A program made the position numbers and the translations under genes. The notes below the pieces were generated by a model. The model did no database searches, was not told the origin of the DNA, and saw only the letters and a program-made list of their open reading frames with translations. A stretch of 64,000 nucleotides of DNA from Reyranella sp. (GTDB taxonomy: Bacteria > Pseudomonadota > Alphaproteobacteria > Reyranellales > Reyranellaceae): contig NZ_SCVC01000031.1 of assembly GCF_004297405.1 (NCBI RefSeq), positions 62,001 to 126,000 of the forward strand, read 5' to 3'. Positions 13,104 through 16,320 of the stretch are shown here, one piece after another. Position 1 is the stretch's first letter. Every line of letters begins with the position of its first letter.

Positions 13104-14075
13104 TCAGCCATCGCCCTTGATGCCCGCGTCCTTCACCAGCTTGCCGTAGCGGGCATAATCTGCCCTCCACATGGTCAAAATGTCTGCCGGTGAACGCGGC
13201 GTAGGCACTTCGCAGCCGGCCCGGGTCAGACGGCCCTGGGTGTCGCTGCTCTGCAAGGCCTTCATCGCCGACGCGTGCAGGCGATCGACGATGGCGGCCG
13301 GCGTGCCGGTCCGCACCGAGATCACGTACCAGCTCATCACCTGGGCGTCGGCGAAGCCTGCCTCGGCGAAGGTCGGGACATCGGGCAGGGTGGGCAGACG
13401 CTTGTCGGCCAGGACGGCGAGCGCGCGAAGCTTGCCCGACATGACATGCTGAAGGGCGAGCGGGCCGGGCAGCAGGCCGACCTGGAGACGTCCTTCGAGC
13501 AGATCGGTCATTCCCGGCGGGATGCCGCGATAGGGCACCGAGATCATGTCGAACTTGTACTGGTTCTTCAGCAGCTCGGCCGAGAGATGGATCGACGAGC
13601 CGTTACCAGGGTTGAGGTAGTTCAGCTTTCCCGGATTGGCTTTGCCGTACTCGACCAGATCTTTCAGTGTTCTGATCGGCAGCTCTGGATTGACGACCGC
13701 CACCGACGTGGCGATCGCGACCAGGGCGACGGGCTGGAAGTCCGTGAGCGCATCGTAGGGCACGGGCTGCAGGTGCGGCACGACGACATGGGAGAGCGTC
13801 GCCATCAGCCAGGTGTACCCATCGGCCGGCGCCTGCGGGATCATGGCCGTCGCGAGTGTGGAGTTGCCGCCCGGCTTTGGTTCGACGACGACCGGCTGGC
13901 CGAGATCGGCCTGCATGGGATCGGCCAGCGATCGGCTCACGATGTCGACGATGCCACCGACGGGATAGGGCACCAGGAACCGGCTGGGCTTGCTCGGCCA
14001 AGCCTGTGCGCCAACGGGCGCTGCGGCCAATGCCATGGCAGCAGTCAGCGCCGTACGTCGTGTCAGTTCCTTCAT
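13104..14075 (-). CDS. TctC/Bug-type periplasmic substrate-binding receptor
   Basis: Receptor of 323 aa with signal peptide (MKELTRRTALTAAMALAAAP, cleavage near GAQA-W). The mature start WPSKPSRFLVPYPVGGIVDIVSR is the standard TctC opening. ATG 14075 is preceded by GGGAGT. It is divergent from the selenoprotein-CoA-transferase unit at 14187, which suggests it may bind that pathway's carboxylate substrate. This is inference; no TctAB permease genes are present. Confidence 0.92.
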   Translation of the reverse strand: MKELTRRTALTAAMALAAAPVGAQAWPSKPSRFLVPYPVGGIVDIVSRSLADPMQADLGQPVVVEPKPGGNSTLATAMIPQAPADGYTWLMATLSHVVVPHLQPVPYDALTDFQPVALVAIATSVAVVNPELPIRTLKDLVEYGKANPGKLNYLNPGNGSSIHLSAELLKNQYKFDMISVPYRGIPPGMTDLLEGRLQVGLLPGPLALQHVMSGKLRALAVLADKRLPTLPDVPTFAEAGFADAQVMSWYVISVRTGTPAAIVDRLHASAMKALQSSDTQGRLTRAGCEVPTPRSPADILTMWRADYARYGKLVKDAGIKGDG

Positions 14076-14186
14076 GGGGACTCCCTGATCTTTGCGTTGA
14101 TTGCGTCGGAAACTACGGCGCACCTGCTAGCTTGTCATCCGCTACGCGAATTTGACTTCATACCGCTGCAGCGCCAATTTTAAGGC

Positions 14187-15113
14187 ATGTCTGACACGAT
14201 GGATTTCGCGCCGACTTTCGACGTGCCGCTCGAGTATATGAGGCGGACGCGTGAGTATTACCTCGCGCTGGGTTACGACAACCCTTACCGCTGGGCACAC
14301 TATGTCGATGCCCCTTTTCAGCCGCTGAAGAAGCCGCTGAAGGACAGCACCCTGGCGCTGATCACGACGGCTGCTCCCTATCAACCCGACAAGGGTGATC
14401 AGGGGCCTGGCGCTCTCTACAACGCCGGCGCCAAGTTCTACAGCGTCTACTCTGGCGATACATCGGCCGACCACGACACGCGCATCTCCCATATCGGCTA
14501 CGACCGCAAGCATACGACAGCGACCGACAGCAACACTTGGTTTCCGCTGCCGTTGATGCGCGAGTTTGCAAATCAGGGACGCTTCAAGCTGGCATCGCGC
14601 TTTCATGGCGCGCCGACAAATCGCAGCCAGCGCGTGACTCTCGAAACCGATGCGCCGGAGATTCTGGCGCGCTGCCGGCAGGACGCGGTCGATGCCGCAC
14701 TGCTTGTCCCTACTTGACCCGTCTGCCACCAGACCGTGAGTCTGGTCGCTCGATATCTCGAAAGGAACGGCATCCCCACGATCGTAATGGGGGCGGCGAA
14801 GGACATCGTCGAATACGCCGGTGTGCCGCGCTTCCTGTTCAGCGACTTTCCGCTCGGCAATTCCTGCGGCAAGCCGCACGAGCCGGATACACAGCGTTTC
14901 ACGCTCGATCTTTCGTTGAAGGTGCTGGAATCCGCCATCGGTCCCAGGACCACGGTGCAGTCGCCGCTGCGCTGGACCGATGATGGCGACTGGAAGAACG
15001 ACTACAACAATATTGAGCGCATGAGCCCCGAAGAAGTCGCCAAGCGTCGGGCGGAGTTCGACAAGGTCAAGCAGGTTGCGCTCGGTCAGCGTCAGAAGGC
15101 CGGCGTCGCCTGA
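14187..15113 (+). CDS. GrdB/PrdB-like selenoprotein with in-frame UGA (predicted Sec177)
   Basis: One 308-residue protein is encoded if the TGA at 14715-14717 is read as selenocysteine. The part before it ends DAALLVPT and the part after continues PVCHQTVSLVARYLE, so the product has U177-P-V-C180, a redox UxxC motif. The family is that of selenoprotein B of glycine/betaine/sarcosine reductase and D-proline reductase, where Sec or Cys occupies this type of position. A SECIS-like hairpin follows at once (14725-14749). The ATG at 14187 has AAGG very close, and ATG 14199 is an alternative start. The CoA-transferase gene begins 13 nt downstream, with its GAGGAT overlapping this stop, so the full-length frame fits an operon. 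Alternatives are a nonsense mutation or sequencing error. In the known reductases such proteins cleave C-N bonds through a selenol; the substrate here is unknown, and no GrdA/GrdE/PrdA partner is visible. Confidence 0.82.
14725..14749 (+). promoter_or_regulatory. bacterial SECIS-like stem-loop directly after the in-frame UGA
   Basis: A perfect 7-bp stem, ACCAGAC (14728-14734) with GTCTGGT (14740-14746), closes the 5-nt loop CGTGA. It is extended by two further G-C/C-G pairs beyond a C-C mismatch. The loop begins 17 nt after the TGA and has G at its second position. This agrees with the known bacterial SECIS pattern (short stem, small apical loop with an early G, loop about 16-37 nt from UGA). 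It would recruit SelB-Sec-tRNA. Confidence 0.75.
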
Positions 15114-15126
15114 GGATCTCTTTGTC

Positions 15127-16320
15127 ATGAGTAAGCCGTTCGCGGGCATCAAGGTTCTCGACTTCACGCGCGTGCTGGCGGGGCCCTACAGCTCCTACCA
15201 GCTCGCCTTGCTTGGCGCCGACGTGATCAAGGTCGAATCGCTCGAAGGCGACGACATGCGCTTCGGCAGCCGTGCCAACGATTGGGAAAAGCGCGGGCTG
15301 GCCGCTCCCTGGGTGGCGGTGAACGCCGGCAAGCGTTCGATCACACTCGATCTCAAGAAGCCCAAGGCCATCGAGATCATCAAGCGGCTCGCCGCCACGT
15401 CCGACGTGGTGGTTGAGAATTTCCGCCCCGGCGTGATGGACAAGCTCGGCATCGGCTACGAGACGCTGAAGGCGATCAATCCGAAGCTGATCTATTGTGC
15501 CGTGTCGGGCTTCGGTCAGATCGGACCCGACGCCAAGACGGCAGCCTTCGACGGCATGATTCAGGCCATGTCGGGCCTGATGTCGATCACCGGCTTCGAG
15601 AACAACGGTCCGACGCGTGTGGGCTTTGCCGGCGCCGATGTCATGTCGGGCGCCACCGCGGCGCTGGGTATCGCCTCGGCGCTTTTCCAGCGCACCCACA
15701 CCGGCAAGGGCCAGCTCGTCGACGTCGCGATGATCGACGCGGTGATGGGCTATCTCGCCCAGCAGTTCACCGAGCATCTGATGACCGGCCGCGTCCATGG
15801 CCAGGCCGCCAATCTCTCGGTGACGCGCAAGCCCACGGGCAATCTCTTCAAGACCAAGGACGGCTGGATCGTGCTCGCGGTCATGACCGATCCGCAGTTC
15901 CAGCGGCTGATGAAGGTGCTGGGGCGTGAGGATGCGCTGGCCGATCCGCGTTTCGTCGACTGGCCGACGCGCATCCAGAACAACACGGCGCTGCACGAGA
16001 TCGTCGAAGCGGCGATGAAGACCGAGACCTCGGCAACCTGGGGCGAGCGCTTCGCCAAGAACGACATCCCAGCCGGCCGTGTGCTCAGCATTCCGGAAAC
16101 CGCACAGCTCGATCTTTTCAAGCATCGCACCGTGCTGCAGACGGTCGAGACCGAACATGGTCCGATCAAGGTCGTGGGCTCGGGCTTCCGCCTCGAACAT
16201 GGCGGCGGCTCCGTCGAGCGGCCACCGGCCACGCTCGGCCAGCACACCGACGAAGTGTTGAAGGAAGCCGGCTATTCGTCGGCGGAGATCGCCGAGATTC
16301 GCAGCAGCAAGGTCGCCTGA
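15127..16320 (+). CDS. class III CoA-transferase (CaiB/BaiF, formyl-CoA transferase-like)
   Basis: CoA-transferase of 397 aa that would move CoA between carboxylic acids. The N-terminus FAGIKVLDFTRVLAGPYSS is typical of the family. The catalytic aspartate is Asp171 in GFAGADVMSG, aligning with Asp169 of formyl-CoA transferase. KRSITLDLKKP and VVENFRPGVMDKLG are the usual conserved blocks. ATG 15127 has GAGGAT upstream; a longer frame start at 15076 lies inside the selenoprotein gene. It is co-directional and only 13 nt from the selenoprotein gene, implying a common pathway. The specific acid is unknown. Confidence 0.93.
   Translation: MSKPFAGIKVLDFTRVLAGPYSSYQLALLGADVIKVESLEGDDMRFGSRANDWEKRGLAAPWVAVNAGKRSITLDLKKPKAIEIIKRLAATSDVVVENFRPGVMDKLGIGYETLKAINPKLIYCAVSGFGQIGPDAKTAAFDGMIQAMSGLMSITGFENNGPTRVGFAGADVMSGATAALGIASALFQRTHTGKGQLVDVAMIDAVMGYLAQQFTEHLMTGRVHGQAANLSVTRKPTGNLFKTKDGWIVLAVMTDPQFQRLMKVLGREDALADPRFVDWPTRIQNNTALHEIVEAAMKTETSATWGERFAKNDIPAGRVLSIPETAQLDLFKHRTVLQTVETEHGPIKVVGSGFRLEHGGGSVERPPATLGQHTDEVLKEAGYSSAEIAEIRSSKVA

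Follow-up and report, generated by a model that had tools for sequence, protein, structure and literature searches.

An open reading frame on the forward strand of the window, that is, the whole 64,000-nucleotide stretch of Reyranella DNA analysed here, is interrupted by a TGA codon, which raises the question of whether this codon is read as selenocysteine (Sec) and what kind of protein the gene would then encode. The frame runs from an ATG at 14187 to a stop codon TGA at 15111–15113, and the TGA at 14715–14717 is its sole internal in-frame stop. Read as Sec, it gives a protein of 308 amino acids with the motif U177-P-V-C180-H181. The first-pass annotation had described one continuous frame around this TGA, with U177-P-V-C180 in the joined product, and had predicted that annotation would split the gene into two truncated genes. 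It is clear that these points were correct: under the ordinary table 11 the gene falls into two pieces, 14187–14717 (176 amino acids) and an ORF starting with GTG at 14736–15113 (125 amino acids), protein identity was kept on both sides of the TGA in the homologs, and these had Cys or Sec at 177 and a constant Cys at 180.

A scan of GTDB genomes gave 80 named homologous loci (count totals also take in the gene's own copy, L089). The codon for residue 177 was TGA in 56 of the 80 and TGC or TGT in 24; Cys180, the UxxC partner encoded on the forward strand by the TGC at 14724–14726, was present in 80 of 80 and was invariant in an alignment (A3) that included authentic PrdB. The TGA loci were mostly from Reyranella and its relatives, and the Cys forms were common in Acetobacteraceae and also made up one clade nested among the Reyranella Sec forms. 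On a tree calculated with the site masked, at least 10 exchanges between Sec and Cys were required, seven of them forced by well-supported branches. The two table 11 pieces would suit a pseudogene, or a sequencing error turning a Cys codon into TGA, but we give this reading practically no chance, as the same TGA was found in 56 named genomes or contigs from independent projects, the protein is conserved on both sides of it, and the stem of the hairpin described below covaries. The possibility that resequencing might remove the TGA had been raised at first pass; since genomes from independent projects share the identical codon, a sequencing error is ruled out. Proteins of Roseomonas and Haematobacter that NCBI names 'glycine/sarcosine/betaine reductase selenoprotein B family protein' were 57–63% identical over the full length and belong to the same family, although they have Cys where the Reyranella protein has Sec. 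One further homolog (L109, genome G076; 56% identical, Cys form) had an in-frame TAG inside the search match.

Directly after the UGA, a candidate SECIS hairpin was found at 14728–14746 on the forward strand, consisting of ACCAGAC (14728–14734), the loop CGTGA (14735–14739) and GTCTGGT (14740–14746), so that the RNA would form a 7-bp stem ACCAGAC/GUCUGGU with the loop CGUGA. The perfect stem, the loop and the start 11 nt past the UGA agreed with the first description, the first stem base being the 11th nucleotide after the codon. Its account of the loop position stood only in part: 17 nt do lie between the UGA and the loop, but the loop G (14736) occupies the 19th position downstream of the UGA and not the 17th. 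The predicted RNA fold of the 45 nt from 14715 to 14759 had an energy of −14.4 kcal/mol (z = −2.0). When codons were randomised synonymously, a 7-bp Watson–Crick stem at such a distance appeared in 0.5% of trials, a result that is only suggestive when taken alone.

The conservation of the hairpin was examined in 25 distinct Sec homologs, including GrdB-like relatives of roughly 420 residues. In the stem, 86.9% of cells were paired, compared with 73.2% in shuffles, and there were 27 double changes; the covariation score was 0.413 against 0.151 in shuffles and was reached by none of 500 shuffles. The shuffle counts ignore the relatedness of the sequences, but the slid control, which gave at most 0.094, does not. 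The loop dinucleotide GU was invariant, and the outermost stem pair was unpaired in 14 of the 25 sequences, which counts against it. Stems of 6–8 bp were seen in 70 of 78 TGA loci, mostly of 6–7 bp, those of the Cys loci measured 2–6 bp, and the hairpin is lost in the Cys homologs. A compensatory change was visible even within one genome, where the paralog on contig 21 has the hairpin ACCAAAC/GUUUGGU. Synonymous sites of close Sec homologs were more conserved over the hairpin (0.89 vs 0.70), but one further 11-codon stretch reached 0.90, so we did not use this as proof. Because 56 of the 80 named loci share the TGA and the stem covaries, the combination of TGA and hairpin goes beyond chance.

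The machinery for Sec insertion was also present. The absence of selA, selB, selC and selD had been named beforehand as a finding that would speak against a selenoprotein, and all four were found in the genome: a tRNA-Sec gene (selC), SelA (559 bits) and SelB (461 bits), both encoded close to the gene of a formate dehydrogenase alpha subunit that contains a TGA, and an intact SelD joined to a part resembling an oxidoreductase. This SelD makes up the C-terminal portion of a 743-residue protein (L092:274-2505) and is of the Cys form; the N-terminal part resembles FAD/NAD oxidoreductases. The formate dehydrogenase-N alpha subunit (L091:989-4093), with its in-frame TGA near selA and selB, gives the genome a selenoprotein of a second kind.

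The presence of selA was then compared among 55 alphaproteobacterial genomes. It was detected in 26 of the 28 that carry the gene in its TGA form, in none of seven with Cys copies only and in two of 20 without a copy (Fisher 4e-11), the last 20 being the first listed and not a random draw. Similarly, a high-scoring tRNA-Sec was found in 27 of 28, 0 of 7 and 2 of 20 genomes of the same classes. The two genomes with a TGA copy in which selA was undetected (G221 and G265) are perhaps incompletely assembled. The TGA/Cys pattern, the covarying hairpin, the machinery, the co-occurrence with selA and the alignment with the Sec residue of PrdB, described below, together make it very probable that this is a real selenoprotein gene of the SECIS/SelB type. 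The recoding signals, the machinery and the Sec/Cys exchange are established at the level of sequence, and it is from these that we infer insertion of Sec in vivo: SelB carrying Sec-tRNA would bind the hairpin after the UGA at 14715, Sec would be placed at position 177, and a PrdB-like protein of 308 residues would be made. In many other alphaproteobacteria we noticed a GrdB/PrdB-like TGA gene of roughly 400 residues that adjoins selA, selB or the gene for tRNA-Sec, as though its product were the main client of the Sec machinery in these bacteria (L124:8313-9530; G027 C4, G056 C80, G162 C147, G164 C228, G086 C5, G218 C1, G252 C3 and G259 C4).

To which family does the protein belong? The gene (14187–15113, forward strand) had been assigned at first pass to a GrdB/PrdB-family selenoprotein. 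Among the NCBIfam profiles, PrdB (TIGR04483) was the top match with 84 bits (E 9e-24), and the GrdB-type models were weaker. The Pfam model GRDB (PF07355) gave 23.5 bits, above its gathering cut-off of 22, which places the protein in the PF07355 or PrdB/GrdB superfamily. In an alignment with authentic PrdB genes taken from plasmid records, U177 coincided with their TGA codon, residue 151 in two PrdB proteins. The homologs have Cys or Sec at this site, and authentic PrdB has Sec. One of these genes, prdB on plasmid pMP1046A of Ligilactobacillus salivarius (L134:3935-4660), has the TGA at codon 151 and lies in a prdA–prdB–prdD cluster. A six-frame GRDB search of the Reyranella genome gave no match; it was set aside, because it stayed silent even though the joined protein scores above the Pfam cut-off.

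Homology to PrdB is thus established from these profile and alignment comparisons, and the shared Sec and Cys positions might even suggest that the protein is itself PrdB of D-proline reductase, or GrdB of glycine/sarcosine/betaine reductase, acting as a subunit that reduces a pyruvoyl-bound amine. We consider this very unlikely. The score of 84 bits falls far short of the equivalog cut-off of 300 for PrdB, which the Peptoclostridium PrdB control passed with 310, and the 34 bits obtained with the GrdB equivalog model (TIGR01917) compare with a cut-off of 602. The partner PrdA was not matched in the Reyranella genome (G000) or in two relatives (G235 and G155), although the same search was positive in W01 and W02, where the model additionally hits PrdD-like genes nearby and, more weakly, genes of the Grd region. 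Similarly, GrdA was not matched in these three genomes, and the searches for both partners were positive in Acetoanaerobium. Compared with PrdB of Peptoclostridium, Acetoanaerobium and Ligilactobacillus, the Reyranella protein has the common core, the Sec/Cys column and UxxCH, but it is only about 27–33% identical and about 70 residues longer owing to N- and C-terminal extensions, and its gene has a CoA-transferase gene as neighbour where prdB has prdA, prdD and racemase genes. With GrdB it shares the Pfam GRDB domain and UxxC, although the match was confined to the C-terminal part of the model and the scores were far below the GrdB cut-offs. The original assignment therefore holds as to relatedness, but the protein belongs to a separate PrdB-like subfamily and is not GrdB or PrdB itself. 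Because of the scores below the cut-offs, and because PrdA and GrdA were not found with working controls, this PrdB relative should not be a D-proline or glycine reductase as known.

PrdB-like UxxC selenoproteins are already known as a kind, and the Reyranella protein is a further member. They were predicted in marine metagenomes in 2005 and again in 2008, with 42 PrdB selenoproteins in the Sargasso Sea (PMC1088965) and 235 in the GOS data (PMC2398784), all of them UxxC; the novelty is therefore lower than the first reading implied. The 'Proline reductase PrdB' of these studies resembles our protein, by its description, in PF07355, UxxC and its status as a predicted selenoprotein, and was named there by homology only. 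In reviews, PrdB is counted among the bacterial selenoproteins with the widest distribution. PrdB-like proteins belong to the commonest selenoproteins of the Sargasso and GOS data, although they are named after a subunit of the clostridial proline reductase. A Rhodospirillaceae metagenome contig (L069) carries the Reyranella-type PrdB-like family in the Sec form. Our literature searches on Reyranella selenoproteins and on the family name returned nothing relevant, and neither the missing PrdA nor the CoA-transferase pairing was found described in the literature searched.

A clue to the role of the protein comes from the adjacent gene, which lies 13 bp downstream on the same strand (15127–16320) and encodes a type III (CaiB/BaiF) CoA-transferase of 397 amino acids. 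Its predicted catalytic Asp is probably D171, by alignment the position that we take to be the counterpart of the catalytic Asp of formyl-CoA transferase. An adjacent CoA-transferase was seen in 60 of 78 Sec loci and 19 of 32 Cys loci, some of which are too short to show one. In genomes G236 and G173 the best match of the Reyranella enzyme was the linked copy (55–57%; next best 43–45%), and the next-best match in its own genome reached 37%; for this reason, the pairing is orthologous rather than accidental. The conserved pair offers a handle on a pathway. The divergent gene upstream (13104–14123, reverse strand; a Bug-type substrate-binding protein by eye) was considered and rejected, its linkage being confined to near relatives.

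Many selenoproteins that act as thiol oxidoreductases have the UxxC motif (PMC1088965, PMC2398784), and some homologs, for example those of Roseomonas and loci L071, L076 and L079, have no CoA-transferase next to them. The protein might then be a general UxxC thiol redox protein, such as a peroxide or disulfide reductase, whose metabolic role would have nothing to do with the CoA-transferase. This seems rather unlikely to us, since the linkage of orthologous CoA-transferases is kept across lineages in which the copies resemble each other at about 50 to 57%, and since the protein is a relative of PrdB with no significant thioredoxin-domain match in the Pfam and NCBIfam profile searches. That the selenoprotein and the CoA-transferase work in one pathway is, in our opinion, somewhat probable; because of this, an organic acid handled as its CoA ester is the likely substrate or product. 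These observations would best suit an enzyme that uses Sec and Cys for a reduction within an acid pathway dependent on CoA.

In the predicted structure (pLDDT 90), a strand at residues 170–174 is followed by a helix at 178–193, so that the model puts Sec177 where a helix begins, an arrangement shared with other redox sites. In such a position a selenol would have a lower pKa. No solved relatives were found by sequence search, and Foldseek with the predicted structure returned nothing at E ≤ 0.001. The matches from a second aligner were limited to common Rossmann-like ones (best Z 9.3), and for that reason we drew no functional conclusion from the fold.

By analogy with PrdB and UxxC enzymes, U177-P-V-C180-H181 would form the active site. 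An attack of the selenolate on a substrate is probably followed by resolution of the intermediate by Cys180 as a selenenyl sulfide, and this would be reduced by a cellular thiol system; the enzyme would work without the pyruvoyl subunit of proline and glycine reductases. Tentatively, and as a possibility rather than as the expected outcome, such a pyruvoyl-independent PrdB-type selenoenzyme and a type III CoA-transferase dedicated to it might jointly perform a new Sec-dependent reductive cleavage of an organic acid or its CoA ester, in bacteria that do not ferment amino acids. The function is amenable to testing, because the cultured Reyranella massiliensis, R. soli, R. aquatilis and Enhydrobacter aerosaccus carry the gene, and, as near relatives include both Sec and Cys forms, the two residues can be compared in natural proteins.

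We also noticed further genes of this kind. The paralog on contig 21 of the same genome (L135; G000:C21:26720-27523, minus strand), a second PrdB-like gene containing a TGA, was 49% identical, and no informative operon was seen around it. In genomes G236 and G156 (L127 and L129), two PrdB-like TGA genes lay within about 6 kb, with a CoA-transferase and an acyl-CoA dehydrogenase, read by eye, between or beside them.
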